Assembly (NCBI RefSeq): GCF_001695855.1
Contig: NZ_MBSS01000023.1
Span: forward strand, 434,001 to 498,000
Direction of reading: 5' to 3'
Length of the DNA: 64,000 nt
Source of the DNA: Ensifer sp. LC163
Lineage (GTDB): Bacteria; Pseudomonadota; Alphaproteobacteria; Rhizobiales; Rhizobiaceae
In this document: positions 28,803 through 41,030 of the stretch, piece by piece
How positions within the stretch are numbered: position 1 is the first letter of the stretch
How the letters are laid out: each line of letters starts with the position of its first letter
Translations under genes and position numbers: made by a program
Notes under the pieces: model-generated
Told to the model about the DNA's origin: nothing
The model's input: only the letters and a program-made list of their open reading frames with translations
Database searches by the model: none

Positions 28803-29102
28803 GGTGGCACGCTCCTGAATTTGGGTCTCATCCGGCAGAGGCGGGATGAATTTACAGGCGGCGCCTAGCACCCCGATGTAACAGCGAGACGACAGGGGAG
28901 GCATGGGACCTGATACCGACAGGCACCCGAAGGAGGCGGAACGCCGCTTCCATGTCTGTTGCCGGAATCGCGCCGCCAATTGGCCGTTTCGCGCGAAGAA
29001 GCGCTGTCGGCGCGTCAACAGTTGCGCAGGCGGCGCACCTTGACTTGCTGGCGCCGAGCAATAGACTCCAGCACACGAAGTATCGGGAAAGGGAGGCCAT
29101 CT
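28803..29102. promoter_or_regulatory. Divergent gap between the ABC importer and fdoG
   Basis: A 300-nt gap that must hold both promoters. I find no clear FNR box, sigma-54 site or strong palindrome. GGGAGG lies 5-6 nt before the fdoG ATG. The rightward frame of fdoG is open back to 28959 but without a good start, and no small gene is convincing. Confidence 0.35.
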
Positions 29103-32100
29103 ATGAACATAGACCTCTCGCGGCGCAGCTTTCTGAAGCTGGCCGGAGCGGGTGTCGTGGCAACTTCCGTCGGAGCAATGGGCTTCGGCGAATCCGAGGC
29201 GGCGGAAATCGCGCATGTGCGTGCTTTCAAGCTGAAGACCACGACCGAGACCCGCAACACCTGCCCGTACTGTTCCGTTGCCTGCGGCGTCATCATCTAT
29301 TCGAAGGGCGATTCTCGAAAAGGCGAGACGGCGGACATCGTCCATATCGAAGGCGACGCTGATCACCCCACGAACCGCGGGACGCTTTGTCCCAAGGGGG
29401 CGGCGCTCAAGGACTTCGTCAAATCGCCGACCCGCCTCCAACATCCGATGCTGCGCAAGCCCGGTTCCGACACCTTCGAGCGGATCTCCTGGGACGATGC
29501 TCTCGATCGGATTGCCCGCCTGATGAAGGACGATCGCGATGCGAACCTGCTTGCGGCCAACGCCAAGGGCATACCGGTCAACCGCTGGACGACCGTCGGC
29601 ATGCTGGCGGCATCTGCAACAACCAATGAAACGGCCTGGGCGACCTTCAAGTTCGCCAAGAGCCTGGGAATAGTCGGTTTCGATAATCAGGCACGCGTCT
29701 GACACGGCCCTACGGTGGCGAGTCTCGCCCCAACATTTGGCCGTGGAGCAATGACCAACTCCTGGACCGACATCAAGAACACCGACCTCGTCGTCGTCAT
29801 GGGCGGCAATGCGGCCGAAGCCCATCCCTGTGGCTTTAAATGGGTCACGGAAGCCAAGGCTCATCGCGGCGCGAAGCTGATCGTCGTCGATCCGCGCTAC
29901 ACCCGTACCGCATCGGTCTCGGACTACTACGCGCCCATTCGCCAGGGAACCGACATCGCGTTCCTGAACGGCGTCATGAAGTATTGCATCGACAACGACA
30001 GGGTGCAGTGGGAGTACACGAAGGCCTTCACCAACGCAGCCTACCTGGTGAAGGATGGCTTCGGCTACAAGGACGGCCTCTTCACCGGCTACGATGCGGA
30101 GAAGCGCGACTACGACCGTTCGACCTGGGACTATGTGATCGGCGACGACGGCTTCGTCGTGACCGACCCGACGCTGCAGCACCCCCGCTGTGTGTGGAAC
30201 CTGCTCAAGGAGCATCTGGCGCCCTACACGCCTGAAATGGTCGAGCGCATCTGCGGCACGCCGAAGGAGAAATTTCTGAGGGTTGCCGAGATGATCTCGG
30301 AGTGTTCGACGCCGACAAAGACGATGACGTCGATGTATGCCCTGGGCTGGACCCAGCATTCGCACGGCTCGCAGAACATCCGCGCCATGGCGATGCTGCA
30401 ACTGATCCTCGGCAATATCGGCGTGCGCGGCGGCGGTATGAACGCCCTTCGCGGCCACTCCAACATCCAGGGCCTGACCGATCTCGGCCTCATGTCGCAC
30501 CTGCTCACCGGCTACCTGACGGCGCCGACCGAGAAGGACGAGGACTTCGAAACCTACATGTCGACGCGGCAGTTCAAGCCGCTTCGGCCGGGCCAGACAA
30601 GCTACTGGCAGAACTACCGCAAGTTCATGGTCTCGTTCCAGAAGGCCATGTGGGGCGACGCCGCGCGGGCCGACAACGACTGGGCCTTCAACTACCTCGC
30701 CAAGCTCGATGTGCCGTCCTACGACGTGCTGCGCGTGTTCGAGCTGATGCATGCCGGCAAGGTCAACGGTTATCTCTGTCAGGGCTTCAACCCGCTGCTC
30801 GCCTTCCCCAACCGTGCCAAGAACACCAAGGCTCTCTCGAACCTGAAGTGGCTTGTCACCATGGATCCGCTGGAAACGGAGACGGCGCGGTTCTGGGAAA
30901 ACCACGGCGATTTCAACCCGGTCGATACGGCCTCGATCCAGACCGAAGTCATTCAGCTGCCGACGACCTGTTTTGCCGAGGAGGATGGGTCGCTGACGAA
31001 TTCCGGCCGCTGGCTGCAGTGGCACTGGGCTGGCGGGACGCCGCCGGGCGAAGCCAAGCACGATACCTATATCATCGCCCAGATTTTCCTGCGGATGCGC
31101 GAACTCTACCGCACGGAGGGTGGCGCCTTCCCCGACCCGATCCTCAACCTGTCATGGGACTATGCCGACGAGAACGAGCCGACGGCCGAAGAACTCGCCA
31201 GGGAGATCAACGGGCGAGCATTGAGCGATGTCATGGACCCGGCCGATCCCACCAAGGTTCTCGTGCCGGCCGGAAAGCAGGTGGTGAACTTCTCGCAGCT
31301 TCGCGACGACGGCTCGACCATGTCCGGCTGCTGGATCTATTCCGGCTGTTTTAACGAGCAGGGCAACAACATGGCTCGCCGGGACAATCACGACCCCGAC
31401 GACACCGGAACCTATCTCGGCTGGACCTTTGCCTGGCCGCTCAACCGCCGCACGCTCTACAACCGCGCCTCGGCGGACCTGGAGGGTAAGCCCTGGGATC
31501 CGAGCCGCAAGCTGCTCGAATGGGACGGTGCCAAGTGGACAGGCTATGACATTCCCGACATTGCGCCGACGGCCAAGCCCGGAGATGTCGGCCCGTTCAT
31601 CATGAACCAGGAGGGCACCGCGCGTCTGTTCACCCGCGGAATGATGCGCGATGGCCCGTTCCCCGCGCATATGGAGCCGTTCGAATCGCCGGTTGCCAAC
31701 GTCTTCAATCTGAAGATGCGCGGCAATCCGGTCAGCCGCATTTTCGAAGATGACGCCAAGCAGCTGGGGCTTTCGGACGAGTTCCCCTATGCGGCCACAT
31801 CCTACCGGCTCACCGAGCATTTCCACTTCTGGACCAAGCACAACCGCGTCAACGCGGCGCTGCAGCCGGAGTTCTTCGTGGAGATTTCCGAGGAACTGGC
31901 GCAGGAGCGGGGCATAACCAATGGCGGCTGGGTCCGGGTCTGGTCGAAGCGCGGCGAGGTCAAGGCCAAGGCAGTGGTGACCAAACGCATCCGGCCGCTC
32001 ATCTGCGACGGCAAGCCGGTTCACGTGGTCGGCATCCCCTTGCATTGGGGGTTCACCGGTTCTGCGAAAAAGGGTTTCGGCCCCAATTCGCTGGTTCCCT

Positions 32101-32198
32101 TCGTCGGCGATGCCAACATCGAGACGCCTGAGTCCAAGGCTTTCCTCGTCAATATCGAGCCTTCGACGCCGCCAAAGGACAAGGAGGGCATAGCGTGA
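29103..32198 (+). CDS. fdoG: Selenocysteine formate dehydrogenase, alpha subunit
   Basis: 1031 residues when the in-frame TGA at 29700-29702 is read as selenocysteine 200. Tat signal [11 protein letters not shown] at residues 5-15; a [4Fe-4S] site CPYCSVACG with the fourth Cys in GTLCPKGA; the Sec context is NQARV[20 protein letters not shown], the same as E. coli FdnG/FdoG. The rest has the molybdopterin-binding regions of the DMSO reductase family. The enzyme oxidises formate to CO2 in the periplasm and feeds electrons through FdoH and FdoI to the quinone pool. A gene caller that treats TGA as stop would split it in two (to 29702 and from 29715). Sec-making genes follow directly downstream. 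Confidence 0.97.
29700..29729 (+). promoter_or_regulatory. UGA recoding site and SECIS hairpin in fdoG
   Basis: The UGA at 29700-29702 is followed by a small hairpin, GGCGA (29717-29721) with TCGCC (29725-29729) and a GUC loop, 14 nt after the UGA. A bulged GU at the tip of a short helix at this distance is what bacterial SelB recognises. Confidence 0.8.
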
Positions 32199-33166
32199 TG
32201 GATAGCCCGCGCACCGCCGTCAGCAACCCGCCGGTCCAGCCGATGGAGAGCAACCTCACGCAGCGCGATCTCGTTCGCCGCTCCGCCACGAGCGAGCTGC
32301 CGCCGCCGGACCGGCAGCTGACGCCGGTCGCCAAGCTGATCGACGTTTCCAAATGCATCGGCTGCAAGGCCTGTCAGTCGGCCTGCATCGAGTGGAACGA
32401 CACGTTTCCGGATATCGAGGAGAATGTCGGGGTCTATACGAACCCGCATGACCTGACCGAAAACATGTTCACGCTGATGCGGTTTACCGAATGGGTGAAC
32501 CCGGAGACGGACAATCTGGAATGGCTGATCCGCAAGGACGGCTGCATGCACTGCGCCGATCCGGGCTGTCTCAAGGCCTGCCCCTCACCGGGCGCGATCG
32601 TGCAATATTCCAACGGCATCGTCGACTTCATCCATGAAAACTGCATCGGTTGCGGCTACTGTGTGAAGGGCTGTCCGTTCAACATTCCCCGCATTTCGAA
32701 GGTCGATCACCGCGCCTACAAATGCACGCTCTGTTCCGACCGCGTCGCGATGGGGCAGGGGCCGGCCTGTGCCAAGGCCTGTCCGACGCAAGCGATCGTG
32801 TTCGGCACGAAGGACGACATGAAGAAACATGCGGACGAGCGCATCGCCGATCTCAAGTCGCGCGGATACGCCAATGCCGGCCTCTACGATCCGCCCGGCG
32901 TCGGCGGGACCCATGTCATGTATGTCCTGCATCACAACGACAAGCCGCATATCTATGCCGACCTGCCGGATGACCCGAAGATTTCCGCTGTCATCGAGGT
33001 GTGGAAGGGCGTGACCAAATATACCGGCCTTGCGGCGATGGGGCTGGCGGCTGCGGGCGCGATCCTGCACGGCCTGTTCGGCAAGGCGAACCGGGTCGAG
33101 CCTGAGGACGAGGTCAGTGCCGAAAAGCTCGTCGAGGAAGCCGAGGATCTCAGGGAGGGCGCCTGA
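32198..33166 (+). CDS. fdoH: Formate dehydrogenase iron-sulfur beta subunit
   Basis: 322 residues from ATG 32198, overlapping the fdoG stop (TGATG); a GTG 3 nt earlier is also possible. Four ferredoxin-type cysteine groups are visible: [37 protein letters not shown] and [21 protein letters not shown], enough for four [4Fe-4S] clusters. A single C-terminal helix ([20 protein letters not shown]) anchors it to the membrane. It carries electrons from FdoG to the cytochrome b subunit FdoI. Confidence 0.96.
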
Positions 33167-33852
33167 TGCCCAGGTCGAACGATGTGCAGCCCGAAGACAC
33201 GATCCATCGCGGCCCGCCGGTAACAGTCGGTCGTTACGGACCCGGCAAGCGCCTCAACCATTGGATTACGGCTTCCTGTCTGATCCTGCTTCTGCTGTCC
33301 GGCCTCTCCATGTTCCATCCGTCCCTGTTCTTCCTGACGGATCTGTTCGGCGGCGGCCAGAACACGCGCATGCTGCATCCCTGGATCGGGGTCGTTCTGT
33401 TCCTGAGTTTTTTCATTTTCTTCGCGCAGCTCTGGCGAGCCAACCTGCCGAACAGGACCGACGCGCAGTGGGTCTCGCAGATCGGCGACGTGGTCAACGG
33501 TCATGAGGAACGGCTGCCGGAGATCGGCAAGTACAATGCCGGACAGAAGTTCATCTTCTGGGGCATGGCGTTCTTCATCATCGTGCTGATCGTCAGCGGC
33601 ATCATCATCTGGGAGCAGTATTTCGGCGAGGCAACGCCCATCGACGTCAGGCGCATTGCTGTGCTGACCCATTCCGTTTCTGCGGTGCTGATCATCCTGC
33701 TCTTCATCCTGCATGTCTACGCCGCGATCTGGACCCGCGGTACGCTGCGGGCGATGACGCGGGGCTCGGTCACCGGCGGCTGGGCCTGGCGCCACCATCG
33801 CAAGTGGCTGAAGGAACTTGCTGGACGGGGCCGGATCGATCCGGCAGAATAA
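33166..33852 (+). CDS. fdoI: Formate dehydrogenase cytochrome b556 gamma subunit
   Basis: 228 residues with four membrane helices (TASCLILLLLSGLSMF, VVLFLSFFIFFAQLW, KFIFWGMAFFIIVLIVSGI, SVSAVLIILLFILHVYAAIW). Histidines that could bind two b-type haems lie at the helix ends (LNHWITA, LTHSVSA, ILHVYAA). It passes electrons to quinone. The start overlaps the fdoH stop (TGATG). The next gene, fdhE, follows after about 38 nt. Confidence 0.94.
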   Translation: MPRSNDVQPEDTIHRGPPVTVGRYGPGKRLNHWITASCLILLLLSGLSMFHPSLFFLTDLFGGGQNTRMLHPWIGVVLFLSFFIFFAQLWRANLPNRTDAQWVSQIGDVVNGHEERLPEIGKYNAGQKFIFWGMAFFIIVLIVSGIIIWEQYFGEATPIDVRRIAVLTHSVSAVLIILLFILHVYAAIWTRGTLRAMTRGSVTGGWAWRHHRKWLKELAGRGRIDPAE

Positions 33853-34815: not shown

Positions 34816-36216
34816 ATGGGTGGGCTTGCCGAACTCCGCACCCTGCCGTCCGTCGACCAGATGTTGAAGGCTCCCGCCGTCGCGCCGCTTGTCGAGCGGC
34901 ATGGCCGGGTGGTGGTGACCGAGGAGCTGCGCCTCGTGCTCGGCGAAATCCGCGAGATGGTTCGCGGCGGCGGCTTGATCCCCGATGCGGACGGCGTCAT
35001 GGCCTCGCTTGTGAGCCGGCTCGAATACCGGGATCGCTCCAATCTGCGCCCGCTCTTCAATCTCACCGGCACCGTGTTGCACACCAATCTCGGCCGTGCC
35101 CTCCTGGCCGAGGAGGCGATTGCCGCTGCCGTCGATGCCATGCGCGAGGCGGCGGCACTGGAGTTCGACCTAGATACGGGTCGGCGCGGCGAGCGCGACA
35201 GCCACCTGCGCGACTTGCTTTGCGAGCTGACGGGCGCCGAGGATGCGACGATCGTCAACAACAATGCTGCCGCCGTGCTGATCGCACTGGGCACGGTTGG
35301 CGGCGGACGGCAGGCGATCGTCTCGCGCGGCGAACTGATCGAGATCGGCGGCGCGTTCCGCATGCCCGATATCATGGAGCGCGCCGGCGTTGCGCTGGTT
35401 GAGGTCGGCACCACGAACCGCACCCATGCCAGGGACTATCGCCGGGCGATCGGGCCCGACACGGCGCTGATCCTCAAGGTTCATACGTCGAACTACCGCA
35501 TCGAAGGGTTTACGGCCGAAGTCTCCGGAGCCGAACTCGCGGCGATTGCGCACCAAGCCGGCCTGGTCCTCCTCAACGATCTCGGCTCCGGGACGCTCGT
35601 CGACCTCTCGAGGTATGGTCTTGGCAAGGAGCCGACGGTGCGCGAAGCCGTGGCCGAGGGCGCGGATCTCGTCACCTTCTCGGGCGACAAGCTGCTGGGC
35701 GGACCGCAGGCGGGTTTTATCGTCGGCCGTCGCGATCTGATCGCCGAGATCAACCGGAATCCGTTCAAACGGGCCTTGCGGGTCGACAAGATCCGCATTG
35801 CGGCGACGGCGGCGACATTGAAGCTTTACCGCGATCCCGACCGGCTCGCCTCCCGCCTTCCCACGCTGCGCATGCTGGCGCGACCGCAAGGCGAAATCCG
35901 TGCCCAGGCGGAACGGCTCGCGCCCGGGGTGGCCAGGCTTCTTGCCTCGATGGGCTATCGGGTGGAGATTTGTCATTGTACGAGCCAGATCGGATCGGGT
36001 GCGTTGCCAGTCGACACGATCGCCAGCGCAGGCCTCAGGATCGAGGCTGCGAGCGGCAGCGCGCTCGAAGCGCTCGCGGCGCTTTTCCGCTCCCTGCCGC
36101 GCCCGATCCTTGGCCGCTTGCAGGACGGGGCTCTCATCCTCGACCTTCGCTGCCTTTCCGACGAGGCGCAGCTCCTGAAAAGCCTGTCCGAGGGCGTCGG
36201 ACATGCACTGGCTTGA
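34816..36216 (+). CDS. selA: L-seryl-tRNA(Sec) selenium transferase
   Basis: 466 residues, normal length. This PLP enzyme turns seryl-tRNA(Sec) into selenocysteyl-tRNA(Sec) with selenophosphate from SelD. Motifs: [16 protein letters not shown] in the N-terminal part, [37 protein letters not shown] and the PLP-lysine motif [13 protein letters not shown]. The 3' end overlaps the SEL1-repeat gene by 14 nt. Confidence 0.96.
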
Positions 36217-36997
36217 TCGTCTGACAGGGCACAGCCCAGACCCGACCTCGGCAACGGACGAGATGGCGCAAGCCCTGGCTGCAGCCCGGAACGGGGACTA
36301 CGAGACGGCGCTGCGCCTATGGGAGCCGTTGGCGCGATCGGGTGTCGCGCGGGCACAGAACAATATCGGCGCCTGTTTTGCCGAGGGGCTCGGCGTACCG
36401 CAGGACCGGGAGCTGGCGCGGACGTGGCTGCGACTGGCAGCGGACGCGGGCGATCCCGTTGGCGAACGCAACTATGCGGCCTTTCACATGCGGGGCGTCG
36501 ATGGCGCGGACGGCGACTATGGTATTGCCGCCGACTACTATCGCCGCGCTGCCGAAAAGGGCGACGCGCCGGCGCAGGACATGCTGAGCTGGATGCTGCT
36601 GGAAGGCGAAATCATGACGCCCGATCCGGCCGAGGCGCGCCGCTGGGCCGAGCGTGCCGCTGAGGCCGGCATCGCTTCCTCGATGACCCGGCTCGGCATG
36701 CTCTATCACAACGCTTCGGGCGTCGAGCGCAACCCTGAAAAGGCCGTCCACTGGTGGCGCAGGGGTGCCATGGCGGGCGATGCCGATGCGCAGGCGATGC
36801 TTGGCGCCGCCTGTCATCTGGGGGCCGGCACGGCCCGCGACGGTGTCGCAGCGCTCGCCTGGCTGATCCGCGCGACCACTGGAGGCAGTGCCCTGGCGCA
36901 ACCTTTCATCGGGCCGGTTCGCGAAAACCTGTCGCCCGTCGAGATAAGCCTGGCCGAGGGACGCGCCCTCCAGCCTCTTGGGGAGGAGCGGCCATGA
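36203..36997 (+). CDS. SEL1-like repeat protein between selA and selB
   Basis: 264 residues, mostly SEL1-type alpha repeats of about 36 residues: [88 protein letters not shown]. No signal peptide or membrane helix, so probably a cytoplasmic scaffold or adaptor. It overlaps selA by 14 nt and selB by 4 nt (ATGA), so it looks translationally coupled to both. This kind of protein is not part of the known selenocysteine pathway. A structural role in the Sec machinery is a guess from gene order. Confidence 0.88.
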
Positions 36998-39042
36998 TCG
37001 TCGGAACCGCCGGCCATATCGACCACGGCAAGACCAGCCTGGTGAAAGCCCTGACCGGCATCGACACCGATCGCCTCAAGGAGGAGAAGGCGCGCGGCAT
37101 CACCATCGATCTCGGCTTTGCCTATGCGAAATTTGCCGAAGCGGTTACCGGATTCGTCGATGTCCCGGGCCATGAGCGCTTTATCCATACGATGCTCGCC
37201 GGTGCCGGCGGCATCGACTACGCCCTTCTCGTCGTCGCGGCGGATGACGGCATCAAGCCGCAAACCCTCGAGCATCTGGCCATCCTCGATCTGCTCGGCG
37301 TCGAAAGGGGATTGGTCGCGATCACTAAGGCCGATCTTGCTGATGCGGAGCGGTTGCAAAGCCTCGGTGCGGAGATCGGCGATATGCTTTCCGCAACGAG
37401 CCTTCGCACCGCCGAGATCCTTCCCGTGTCCGCCGCCACGGGCCTTGGTATCGCCGAGTTGAGAGACCGCCTGGCCGAGGCCGAACGCGCCACGGTGAAA
37501 GAGAGAGCGGCGGGCCGGTTCCGGCTCACGGTCGATCGCAGTTTCATTCTTTCGGGCGCTGGAACGGTGGTCACCGGAACGGTTCTTTCCGGTTCGGTTG
37601 CGGTTGGCGACAACGTGATGATTTCGCCATCCGGGCAGGAAGCCCGCGTGCGCTCGATCCATGCCCAGGACCAGCGGTCGGAGCGCGGGGTCGCCGGTCA
37701 GCGCTGCGCGCTCAATCTCGCAGGCGACGGCATCTCCAAGGACAAGGTCGGCCGCGGCGACGTGGTGCTCGACCCCTATCTGCATGCGCCGACCGCCCGC
37801 ATCGATGCGGAGCTGTTTGTGCTCAAGGGCGAGCCGAAGCCGGTCGGGGAATGGTTTTCCGCACGCCTGCACCATGGTAGTGCCGAAGTCGGGGTCCGCA
37901 TCGTGCCGCTCCAAAACCCCGTAGGTCCCGGAGAGCGGGCGAAGGTCCAGCTCGTCCTCGATCGGCCGCTCGCTGCCGCGGTCGGTGATCGATACATCCT
38001 GCGCGACGTTTCGGCCCGGCGCACCATCGGCGGCGGGCGGCTTCTCGATCTGCGTGCGCCGCTGCGCAAGCGTCGGGCACCCGAGCGGATTGCCTATCTC
38101 GATGCGGCAGGCGCCGCGGAAACGAGTCCGGCGCTTTCTGCGCATCTGCATACGCCGCCCCATGTCGTCGATCTTGACGCCTTCGCGCGCGACCGGTCGG
38201 TATCGGAGGAAGAACTGCGCGAGGCAATCGACCTTTGCCGCGCCGTCGTGATCGAGGGGGGGCATGTGCGCCATGCCCTGTCCAGGGCGCGATGGGACGA
38301 CTTGACGAAGGACGTCGGGCGGTTTCTCGCCGACTTCCATGTCGAAAATCCTGACCTGCAGGGGATCGGACGTGAGCGCCTGCGCCTGCAGGTCACGTCG
38401 CGATTGCCGATGTCCGCTTTTCTTGTCGTGCTCAGGCAGGAACAGGCCGCCGGGCGCCTTGTGCTCGAGGGAGCCTTCGTTCGCCTGCCGGGTCATGAGG
38501 TTCGTCTGAGCGAGGGTGAAGAGGCGTTGTTTGTATGTATCTTGCAGCATCTCGAAAGCGAGGAGCGCTTTCGCCCGCCGCGCGTGCGCGACCTTGCCGA
38601 CGTGCTTGGCGTCGACGAGCAGGAGATCCGGCGCGTGCTGAAGCTGTGCGCAAGGCTCGGGCGTGTCGACGAGATCAGGCGCGATCATTTCTTCATTCGT
38701 TCCTCCACCGCGGAAATGGTTGAAATCATAAGAGATATCGCAGCGAAGACCGAACGGGGCGAATTTGCAGCCGGTCTCTTTCGGGATCGCGTGAACAGCG
38801 GTAGAAAGGTGGCGATCGGGATCCTGGAGTTCTTCGATCGCCAGGGAGTGACGCTCCGGCGCGGTGATATCAGGCGCGTCAATCCCCATAGGCTCGACCT
38901 TTATGGCGGAGCCACGCCCGAGGTGAAGCAAGGAAGAGATTCGTCCCCGGTGGGGCGTCCGGACTTCAAATCCGGGTGGGGCAGCGAGGCTGTCTTGGGT
39001 GGGTTCGACTCCCATTCTCTTCCGCCATCGGGAGATCGTTGA
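36994..39042 (+). CDS. selB: Selenocysteine-specific elongation factor, C-terminus overlaps tRNA-Sec
   Basis: 682 residues as read; residues 647 onward are encoded by the tRNA-Sec gene. SelB binds GTP, Sec-tRNA and the SECIS hairpin to insert selenocysteine. G1 is AGHIDHGKTSL, G3 is DVPGHERFIHT and G4 is ITKADL. Domain II-III follows (GAGTVVTGTVLSG) and then winged helices that bind the mRNA; the last one ends near VTLRRGDIRRVNPHRLDLYG. That is where family members usually stop. There is no stop codon until 39040-39042, so ribosomes would translate the whole tRNA sequence. ATGA overlap with the SEL1 gene upstream, TGATG overlap with the gene downstream. Confidence 0.94.
   Translation: MIVGTAGHIDHGKTSLVKALTGIDTDRLKEEKARGITIDLGFAYAKFAEAVTGFVDVPGHERFIHTMLAGAGGIDYALLVVAADDGIKPQTLEHLAILDLLGVERGLVAITKADLADAERLQSLGAEIGDMLSATSLRTAEILPVSAATGLGIAELRDRLAEAERATVKERAAGRFRLTVDRSFILSGAGTVVTGTVLSGSVAVGDNVMISPSGQEARVRSIHAQDQRSERGVAGQRCALNLAGDGISKDKVGRGDVVLDPYLHAPTARIDAELFVLKGEPKPVGEWFSARLHHGSAEVGVRIVPLQNPVGPGERAKVQLVLDRPLAAAVGDRYILRDVSARRTIGGGRLLDLRAPLRKRRAPERIAYLDAAGAAETSPALSAHLHTPPHVVDLDAFARDRSVSEEELREAIDLCRAVVIEGGHVRHALSRARWDDLTKDVGRFLADFHVENPDLQGIGRERLRLQVTSRLPMSAFLVVLRQEQAAGRLVLEGAFVRLPGHEVRLSEGEEALFVCILQHLESEERFRPPRVRDLADVLGVDEQEIRRVLKLCARLGRVDEIRRDHFFIRSSTAEMVEIIRDIAAKTERGEFAAGLFRDRVNSGRKVAIGILEFFDRQGVTLRRGDIRRVNPHRLDLYGGATPEVKQGRDSSPVGRPDFKSGWGSEAVLGGFDSHSLPPSGDR
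38932..39027 (+). tRNA. selC: tRNA-Sec (anticodon UCA)
   Basis: 96 nt including CCA. Acceptor stem of 8 bp (38932-38939 GGAAGAGA with 39016-39023), discriminator G, CCA encoded at 39025-39027. Anticodon stem CCGGA/TCCGG with loop CTTCAAA, anticodon TCA at 38966-38968. A long variable arm (GGCAG with CTGTC) and T-loop TTCGACT with stem GGG/CCC, all as in bacterial tRNA-Sec. It lies fully inside the 3' end of the selB frame on the same strand. Confidence 0.97.
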
Positions 39043-39425
39043 TGGCACATGCGCCATGCAATACCGACTTCGATGACTGGATCGTTTCCGCCTATGGCGA
39101 GGCGGGCGCCTTCACCATGCTGTTCGTCCTGCTGGCGGTCGGCGAGACCCGGGTCGACCTTCTGCGCTCCGCCTATCTTCATGTCGTCGGCGACGATACC
39201 CGATGGCAGGACATGATCGCGCTTCTCGCCGGCGCCGGCGTGCACTGGTCCGGTGTCGTGTTTTACCGCGCCGGCCCGGAAGGGCTCGTCGAAGACCATG
39301 TCGCCAAGGGCCGGCTGGCTTCCCTTGTTCGCAATCTCAACGAGGATCGATCGCTGATCCGTGAGGGGGAGTTCTTCAATGCCGACGGATTGCGGCTGTC
39401 GATCGAGGAGATCAAGCCGCACTGA
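39042..39425 (+). CDS. Conserved-looking 127-residue protein after selB, unknown function
   Basis: ATG at 39042 overlaps the selB-frame stop (TGATG), so the ribosome that reads through the tRNA-Sec sequence would restart here. The sequence starts MAHAPCNTDFDDWIVSAYGE and has good coding features (WQDMIALLAGAGVHWSGV, LVRNLNEDRSLIREGEFFN). No membrane segment or known motif; it appears soluble, alpha-beta. I do not recognise the family. Its place at the end of the sel operon suggests a link to selenium metabolism or formate oxidation, which is inference only. Confidence 0.75.
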   Translation: MAHAPCNTDFDDWIVSAYGEAGAFTMLFVLLAVGETRVDLLRSAYLHVVGDDTRWQDMIALLAGAGVHWSGVVFYRAGPEGLVEDHVAKGRLASLVRNLNEDRSLIREGEFFNADGLRLSIEEIKPH

Positions 39426-39524
39426 TCTCCCGTCTTGACTGCTGTCCTGATCGACCGCTCCGGTGCCACTTGCGCTGACACCACCGTGCGATTGCGCTGG
39501 TATTCTCCTTCAAGGTTGCTCTAC

Positions 39525-39547
39525 CAACGGGATGCTGCGGCCCGTTG
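39525..39547. terminator. Candidate terminator between convergent genes
   Basis: CAACGGG (39525-39531) pairs with CCCGTTG (39541-39547) around a 9-nt loop, between the rightward sel operon and leftward selD. On the + strand a T-rich stretch follows, but not immediately. Confidence 0.4.
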
Positions 39548-39567
39548 TTCCATCCCTCGCTTTTCTC

Positions 39568-40617
39568 TCAGGCGCGAACCTCCACTTGCACAGGGCCGGA
39601 CCGCGTGTGGCCGACGATGGCGGCGAGCGGATAGCCTGCGCCTTGGATCGTCTTGACCAGGCTGTCTGCGCTGGCGGCGTCGCAGGCAACCAGAAGTCCC
39701 CCTGATGTTTGCGGGTCCGCAAGCAGAAGACGCTGCCAATCCGGCGGACCGTCGGGCAACCTGACTTCGCCTCCGTAGCTCGCCCAGTTGCGCTCTGAGG
39801 CGCCGGTGATGAAGCCTTGACGGGCAAGCGCCTCTGCCTGCGACAGGAAAGGAATGCCTGCGAGGGAAAGAGACACTGTCAAATCGGACGCGCGGGCCAT
39901 TTCGAGCCCATGACCGAGGATGCCGAAGCCGGTGACATCCGTCAGCGCATGCACATGCGGATCGGCGGCAAGCTCGGAGCCGATCCGGTTGAGAAGGGTC
40001 GTCGAGGCGATCATCTCCTCATAGCACGCCTGCGGCAGGGCCTTCTTCTTGAAGGCGGAGGAATAGATGCCGACCCCAATACCCTTGGTGAGGATCAAGG
40101 CGTCCCCCGGCTTCGCGCCGCCATTGCGCCGCACCTGTTCCGGGCGACAGATGCCGATGACGGCAAGGCCGTAGATGGGTTCGACCGAATCGATCGAATG
40201 CCCGCCGGCGACGGGGATGCCGGCCTGCGCGCAGATCGACGCGCCCCCTTCGAGGATCTTGCCGATGGTCTCGGGGGAAAGCTTGCTGATCGGCATGCCG
40301 AGGATCGCAAGCGCCAGGATAGGGGTACCGCCCATGGCGTAGATGTCCGAAATCGCGTTCGTGGCGGCGATGCGCCCGAAATCGTGCGGGTCATCCACCA
40401 CGGGCATGAAAAAATCGGTAGTGGCGATGATGCAGGTATTGTCGTCAACCTGCCAGACGGCCGCGTCGTCGGCCGTGTCGTTGCCGACGAGCAGTTGGGA
40501 GAAGGGCGTCATGGCCGGTTGACTGGCGAGAAGCCGCTGCAGAACCGAGGGCGCGAGCTTGCAGCCGCACCCACCCCCATGGGCAAGTTCCGTCAGACGG
40601 GGTTCAAGAGATGTCAT
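39568..40617 (-). CDS. selD: Selenophosphate synthetase
   Basis: 349 residues from ATG 40617, chosen because GGGAGGA precedes it and because it puts the catalytic pair at Cys17 and Lys20 (HGGGCGCK), the same numbering as E. coli SelD. The enzyme makes selenophosphate from selenide and ATP for SelA. Active site uses Cys, not Sec. Other family features: [52 protein letters not shown] and [14 protein letters not shown]. Convergent to the sel operon, so it has its own promoter. Confidence 0.95.
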
Positions 40618-41030
40618 GTGTCCTCCCGCGTAAAACACTTTGCTCGCTCAATCCTACACGTTCGCCGGCCGCCGGGCAGAGACCGCTGATCGCGGAGGCG
40701 CGGGTAGACGATCCTTGGCAAGTTAGAACGATGTCGCGCGGGAGCAAGGTCGCGTCATCGGTTCTGTGCGATATGTCTGTCCGGCGGGCGGGCTTGTCGC
40801 GTTATCGGCAAGGCGCCAGTCAGGGCTGAGCCTCGACCCGGAGGCTTCGGTGGCAGCGTCTTCATTTGCTGCGACGGTTTGACCCGTGGGATCGAAGCCT
40901 GCAAAGTTCGGGAATGTTGTGATCTTGGATGACAGGACGTTGAATCCTTGCCTGTATTGGATCATGCCTGCAACTGCCGATCGGCGATAAGCCGGACAGG
41001 GAACGGCCCTGGTAACGGTCAATTGGAGTC
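40618..41030. other. Gap with selD promoter, no gene seen
   Basis: 413 nt between the divergent starts of selD and the periplasmic protein gene. A 99-codon minus-strand frame (40723-41022) has no ribosome site or recognisable motif, so I do not call it. TGGAG lies just before the ATG at 41031. Confidence 0.5.

Follow-up and report, generated by a model that had tools for sequence, protein, structure and literature searches.

Phase conservation of the reading frame leading into a tRNA-Sec gene nested within selB in Ensifer sp. LC163 and its relatives

Nested selBC genes, in which the gene for the selenocysteine tRNA (selC, tRNA-Sec) lies inside the selB reading frame, were described by Mukai 2021 (PMC8124441) from Rhizobiales, Rhodobacterales, Rhodospirillales and Caulobacterales, in what is presented as the first such report from bacteria. 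In that qualitative account the tRNA is 96 nucleotides long (or 93; 95 in some), preserving the frame, and the selB stop codon overlaps the start of a downstream gene, ORF1 or ORF2, in many, not all, members. Some lineages have lost the nesting. In Dyella and Luteibacter selB stops within the tRNA at nucleotides 46–48, with a similar case in Nitrospirae, and a remnant of tRNA-Sec is found in selB of Sinorhizobium meliloti pSymA. A regulatory role was proposed there as a hypothesis only, and the model holds that excision of the tRNA also silences the downstream ORF. Excerpts of reviews from 2022 and 2026 restate the nested arrangement, and a literature search for experiments on nested selBC found none. 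The nearest parallel outside this group comes from the mitochondria of Armadillidium, in which tRNA-Lys lies within cox1 (Doublet 2015, as summarised in Mukai 2021). According to that summary, there too the tRNA lies wholly within the protein frame in direct orientation, and exclusion between processing and translation has been proposed; however, the mitochondrial genome is compact whereas the genome studied here measures 6.5 Mb, which makes compaction an unlikely cause, as Mukai 2021 argues likewise.

We analysed a window of 64,000 nucleotides from Ensifer sp. LC163 (contig NZ_MBSS01000023.1, positions 434,001 to 498,000) that contains a further example of the nested selBC of Mukai 2021. It shares with the described cases the common strand, the whole tRNA-Sec within the selB frame, the tRNA length of 96 nucleotides with CCA included, a tail that begins with Gly and has Pro at the CCA as its last tRNA-encoded residue, the overlap between the selB stop and the next ORF (TGATG), and the location within an fdo-sel cluster. 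An initial annotation made from the sequence had independently arrived at both the arrangement and the regulatory idea, which were already published in 2021. What is novel here is a quantitative phase lock with an internal control: unlike Mukai 2021, we tested the phase on a tree, taking relatives that stop upstream of the tRNA as the comparison. In addition, the downstream ORF often retains a Shine-Dalgarno (SD) sequence after excision, and in a sample of one family ORF2 occurs only alongside SelB.

Table 1. Coordinates of the selBC locus and of the neighbouring formate dehydrogenase and selenocysteine genes (positions in the window; bit scores are followed by the model cut-off where one is given).
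Feature	Position	Strand	Remarks
Formate dehydrogenase alpha (start approximate)	28959..32198	+	in-frame UGA at 29700-29702
Formate dehydrogenase beta	32195..33166	+	TIGR01582, 514.2 bits vs 334.7
Formate dehydrogenase gamma	33166..33852	+	TIGR01583, 181.1 bits vs 115.85
selA	34816..36216	+	TIGR00474, 588.5 bits vs 267.9; Pfam SelA
Sel1-repeat protein	36203..36997	+	Pfam Sel1 PF08238, 130.2 bits, 3 stretches
selB	36994..39042	+	682 aa; ATG 36994, TGA 39040-39042; TIGR00475 and Pfam domains
Spacer, 18 codons, from end of TIGR00475 match (residue 628) to tRNA nucleotide 1	38878..38931	+	
tRNA-Sec (selC)	38932..39027	+	96 nt, CCA encoded, anticodon TCA; ARAGORN
tRNA 3' end to next ATG, 14 nt	39028..39041	+	contains Shine-Dalgarno-like GGGAG
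TGATG	39040..39044	+	selB stop overlapping ORF2 start
ORF2	39042..39425	+	127 aa, conserved protein
selD, selenophosphate synthetase	39568..40638	-	TIGR00476, 420.6 bits vs 125

The central claim of the annotation, that tRNA-Sec lies wholly inside the selB frame and that the next gene starts in the same TGATG, was confirmed by the sequence, the ORF list, ARAGORN and Rfam. The terminal TGA is the first stop of the frame, which therefore takes in all 96 nucleotides of the tRNA on the same strand, the first of them being position 1 of codon 647. The protein itself is a clear SelB, scoring 427.7 bits against TIGR00475 (cut-off 242.25) with residues 1–628 covering positions 1–578 of the 581 in this equivalog model, and carrying the GTP_EFTU, SelB beta-barrel and winged-helix domains of Pfam. 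As had been supposed, its last domain ends before the tRNA: beyond the TIGR00475 match, the alignment to the E. coli SelB chain (5lzb) reaches residue 626, and in an AlphaFold2 model built from 38 SelB sequences (the one in the window plus 37 from nested relatives) the pLDDT is below 50 over residues 639–682. The tail, consisting of 18 spacer codons, 32 tRNA codons and the last four sense codons, is accordingly modelled as disordered.

The tRNA scores 77.5 bits against Rfam RF01852 (cut-off 47; match 38932–39023) and has the UCA anticodon. The second-best match in the genome, at 47.9 bits barely over the cut-off, is a tRNA-Ser according to ARAGORN, and the remaining six are weaker and under the cut-off; the nested gene is the sole tRNA-Sec predicted in the genome by the RF01852 search and ARAGORN. 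An energy model retains the tRNA fold within the mRNA context of the window. In the fold predicted for 39024–39048, the 3' GCCAUC of the tRNA pairs with a GAUGGC that spans the selB stop and the ORF2 start, so that excision would release the ORF2 start from this pairing; among relatives with the same stop/start overlap, a GAUGGC-like sequence was seen by eye only in L167. A scan of 38300–39600 for sigma-70-like promoters, the one promoter type covered, gave none, but shuffled sequences yield only 0.2, so this absence favours neither reading.

The selBC pair sits at the 3' end of a gene cluster for formate dehydrogenase and selenocysteine, and selA precedes selB in one series of overlapping genes; the Sel1-repeat ORF between them shares a few bases with the 3' end of selA and a few with the 5' end of selB. 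The gene for the formate dehydrogenase alpha subunit has the features of a selenoprotein gene. Its piece 29100–29858 is open throughout if TGA is read as selenocysteine, and matches residues 2–247 of TIGR01553 with 334.1 bits, as a fragment and hence below the whole-protein cut-off. It also contains the only SECIS element in the window at Rfam gathering scores (SECIS_3, RF01989, 29697–29755, 85.2 bits). Since the nested tRNA-Sec is the only one found in the genome, we predict that it must serve this enzyme with its Sec-UGA and SECIS, and that the nested gene should therefore be expressed. The genome also encodes an alpha-tmRNA (309.9 bits).

Downstream, the nucleotides 39028–39039 double as the final four sense codons of selB, and ORF2 starts at the ATG at 39042–39044, an in-frame TTG at 39039 being also possible. 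The label ORF2 follows from its position and from the order selB-ORF1-ORF2 in relatives, not from comparison with the ORF2 sequence of Mukai 2021. Searches of Pfam and NCBIfam gave no family for its product, and a fold search with its AlphaFold2 model (pLDDT 90.4) gave no usable match. ORF2 is present in 17 of the 394 sampled genomes of the family, all of which are among the 48 that have SelB (lists compared by eye), and it looks like a candidate accessory of selenocysteine use or of formate dehydrogenase.

To place the locus among its relatives we scanned 255 loci (L001 and L009–L262), locating the SelB end by profile and the tRNA by ARAGORN. A SelB match was found in 244, and 11 tRNA-Sec loci without nearby SelB were excluded. 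These loci are not a random sample. The named set comprises the best 80 of 476 relatives, from an alignment in which seven of eight rows were nested, and nested loci are over-represented in it (51/80). The family search found SelB in 48 of 394 genomes; all 48 loci were read, and 20 were nested (counting that of the window), 13 had a stop before the tRNA, three had a stop inside it and 12 had no tRNA-Sec in the DNA scanned. At class level 50 of 53 matches were read and at phylum level 50 of 51, with three nested in each case (again including the window's own). We removed 14 duplicates, which matched another locus exactly for about 500 nucleotides at the selB end. Of the 230 distinct loci that remained, 75 were nested, 88 stopped before the tRNA (henceforth upstream-stop loci), eight stopped inside it, one had an antisense tRNA-Sec and 58 had no tRNA-Sec in the DNA scanned; these last 58 and the opposite-strand case were left out of the phase counts. 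A SelB tree was built from the loci whose SelB scored 500 bits or more, 149 in all (75 nested, 45 upstream-stop, seven stop-inside and 22 without tRNA-Sec); it is a quick tree with 45 of its 146 inner branches open. Phylogenetically independent pairs were drawn from this tree using the 38 of the 45 upstream-stop loci with spacers shorter than 250 nucleotides, and from a FastTree phylogeny using all 45.

The frame into the tRNA turned out to be locked in phase wherever it continues through it. In 74 of the 75 distinct nested loci nucleotide 1 of the tRNA is position 1 of a codon (phase 0), even though the spacer among these 74, measured from the profile end, comes in 17 lengths from 21 to 114 nucleotides, all multiples of three apart. 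Upstream-stop loci provide the internal control, and there the three phases are mixed, with 33, 24 and 31 of the 88 distinct loci in phases 0, 1 and 2 (16/12/17 of the 45 on the tree). Among independent nested pairs the spacer length differs in 15 of 35, in 14 of these by a multiple of three, against differences in 12 of 18 upstream-stop pairs, only three of them by a multiple of three; on the FastTree phylogeny the multiples of three amount to 14/14 and 5/14, respectively. Parsimony likewise gives at least 32 length changes with a single phase change over the 75 nested loci, as opposed to at least 35 length changes with 18 phase changes over the 45 upstream-stop loci. If the phase were free, the expected share of phase 0 among open-through loci would be about 0.42, and 14 of 15 pairs would then have p = 5.5e-5.

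The sole nested locus in phase 2 is L162, where tRNA-Sec is read in another frame. At L011 the SelB match is split over two frames, by a frameshift that may be real or stem from sequencing, and the locus is otherwise nested.

The open frame alone would have been weak evidence, because tRNA-Sec genes are mostly free of stops in all three frames: 75, 70 and 65 of the 75 distinct nested genes in phases 0, 1 and 2, and 75, 74 and 49 of the 88 upstream-stop genes. When frameshifting indels were placed at random in the spacer, an average of 75% of trials retained a frame that passes through the tRNA, so that off-phase nested loci were possible. The tRNA length is also of little evidential value, since 96 nucleotides prevail with an upstream stop as well (40/45 on the tree and 60/88 overall, compared to 73/75 nested). 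It is the conservation of phase, and not the open frame itself, that exceeds chance. The phase lock is real and is missing where translation has already stopped, a pattern that shows a frame apparently held in step by selection up to the tRNA, and the strongest sign we have that ribosomes would enter it. It also makes it very improbable that SelB really ends earlier, by an unrecognised recoding event or an mRNA end, with the tRNA transcribed from its own promoter and no translation reading through: a phase lock over 75 loci is not expected of untranslated sequence.

The conservation that the annotation had proposed to look for in the frame through the tRNA holds for its phase in nested loci, but does not extend to the relatives at large. 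Many of these stop before the tRNA, i.e. the very case that had been named as contrary to the proposal is common, with 45 of the 127 tree loci that have a downstream tRNA-Sec and 88 of 171 distinct loci. On the tree we count 18–19 class changes, direction not assigned, in which selB gained or lost a stop ahead of the tRNA or within it. Given this frequency of upstream stops, nesting must be dispensable.

Some of the non-nested relatives deserve separate mention. Within the genus of the window, the SelB proteins of L155 and L156 group with those of Paracoccus and Tabrizicola, and both loci have a TGA directly before nucleotide 1 of the tRNA, which suggests that they may belong to a separately acquired sel cluster. 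Similar to the S. meliloti pSymA remnant, L137 (also of this genus), L149 and L128 have selB frames that end in a truncated tRNA-derived tail, whereas the tRNA in the window is whole and the sole tRNA-Sec found in its genome. In five loci, falling on at least three tree branches, selB stops at nucleotides 46–48 of tRNA-Sec, with TGA in L015, L101 and L110 and TAG in L055 and L160; phase-0 stops within tRNA-Sec occur only at codons 46 and 55.

What the lock is for is a separate matter. One possibility, which we regard as rather unlikely, is that the frame is kept only for re-initiation on ORF1 or ORF2 at the overlapping stop, the tRNA merely lying in between. The selB stop does overlap the start of a downstream ORF (of at least 60 amino acids) in 48 of the 75 nested loci, here called coupled, as opposed to 6/45 upstream-stop, 1/7 stop-inside and 4/22 loci without tRNA-Sec. 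Similarly, a homologue of ORF1 or ORF2 is nearby in 53/75 nested loci against 8/45, 1/7 and 2/22; on independent pairs this association goes in the expected direction, weakly (median p 0.07). Coupling alone is nevertheless not the selected target, because all 27 uncoupled nested loci, which have no overlapping downstream gene, are in phase 0 as well. Their six independent spacer differences are all multiples of three, and parsimony finds 12 length changes among them with no change of phase. Nor need the downstream gene always depend on the bridge. The leader left to it after excision measures 14 or 17 nucleotides in 32 of the 48 coupled loci, and an SD core follows the tRNA in 26 of the 48 (9.4 expected by shuffling; uncoupled loci 5/27 against 2.7), permitting independent initiation in about half of them. 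With this SD left in place, the downstream ORF need not fall silent on excision; the message would not be leaderless here, while the model of Mukai 2021 has it leaderless and silenced.

At the level of the peptide, the annotation had suggested looking for synonymous change at sites neutral for the tRNA, and on independent pairs no significant excess was found. Across 33 nested pairs the differences within the tRNA number 40/34/43 at the three codon positions, while the 19 control pairs give 38/28/29 (p = 0.38 for position 3), and the share of synonymous codons does not differ significantly between nested and upstream-stop pairs (p = 0.11), a comparison of limited power. The tail codons after the tRNA give no sign of protein-level constraint (34/28/35 differences at positions 1/2/3), and the spacer codons have a slight excess at the third position (93/93/135). 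The sequence comparison thus detects no significant amino-acid constraint in the tRNA codons beyond that of the tRNA itself, which counts against the reading we prefer, and is, like the modelled disorder, what one would expect of a tolerated tail. The nesting would then be a neutral accident, a stop gone missing in a compact operon in front of a stop-free tRNA-Sec, and phase 0 would prevail because its peptide is the mildest and its run-on the shortest. The tRNA-Sec is indeed open in most phases, and its phase-0 peptide is as hydrophilic as that of phase 1 and more so than that of phase 2 (GRAVY -0.80, -0.77 and -0.13 for phases 0, 1 and 2), is near neutral (net charge -0.7, +3.6 and +4.1) and ends soonest. 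In coupled loci the two off-phase frames end at medians of 86 and 163 codons from nucleotide 1 of the tRNA, against 38 in phase 0, and a sober candidate is that the lock may reflect avoidance of a SelB that extends into the next gene or right through it, and not a use of the nesting. We give such tolerance a substantial chance, though one that falls short of even. By itself it does not explain nesting across several orders, and phase 0 persists in uncoupled loci, where the off-phase run-on is modest (63 and 54 codons against 38).

We think it probable, instead, that the selB frame is genuinely translated and that a given transcript yields either full-length SelB or, when RNase P excises it, tRNA-Sec. 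Ribosomes would read from the last SelB domain through the tRNA to the TGA that overlaps ORF2, so that SelB would carry a disordered tail about 44 residues long. tRNA-Sec would come from this transcript too, through an RNase P cut at nucleotide 1 of the tRNA (38931/38932) and a 3' nuclease cut after the CCA. As this site precedes the selB stop at 39040, excision of the tRNA removes the stop, and the annotation was right that processing would sever the selB message ahead of it. Uncut RNA would thus yield full-length SelB and ORF2. Cut RNA would yield tRNA-Sec, a stop-less selB message whose ribosomes would be rescued by tmRNA, and a short ORF2 message that retains its ribosome-binding site. Selection would keep the frame in register as long as the tail is translated, a frameshift moving the end of SelB. 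The anatomy, the phase lock and the tmRNA gene support this scheme; co-transcription, the order of processing and the fate of the cut message are inferred.

In E. coli, SelB reportedly regulates its own synthesis by binding to a SECIS-like element upstream of selA. That autoregulation (Thanbichler and Bock 2002, as outlined in Mukai 2021) and the nesting could both limit SelB. The initial annotation and Mukai 2021 have gone further and envisaged a homeostatic feedback, in which excision lowers SelB and so balances it against tRNA-Sec, perhaps according to selenium supply. The anatomy does force mutual exclusion on each transcript, a tmRNA is present, and phase 0 is kept in the uncoupled nested loci as well as in six of the eight loci with a stop inside the tRNA. 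However, such a feedback has no known sensor or response, upstream stops are frequent among relatives, the fold predicted for the window is that of the tRNA with no two-state switch, and the SD retained in many coupled loci means that excision need not silence the downstream ORF. Evidence for it was found neither in the present analysis nor in the literature search; a feedback between SelB and tRNA-Sec is possible but unsupported, and we consider it unlikely. We are similarly doubtful of a bolder version of the preferred scheme, in which the nesting would be a working device that sets SelB and tRNA-Sec in competition for each transcript, with the phase kept for this purpose also in uncoupled loci and in those that stop at nucleotides 46–48, and with ORF2 as a further selenocysteine-linked factor under the same choice.

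If the frame is truly read through a functional tRNA, a single stretch of RNA would double as coding sequence and as a folded tRNA, in uses that exclude each other. The phase lock turns the description of 2021 into a measurable claim, namely that translation reaches the tRNA, and the nested and stop-before-tRNA relatives are ready-made pairs for comparison.
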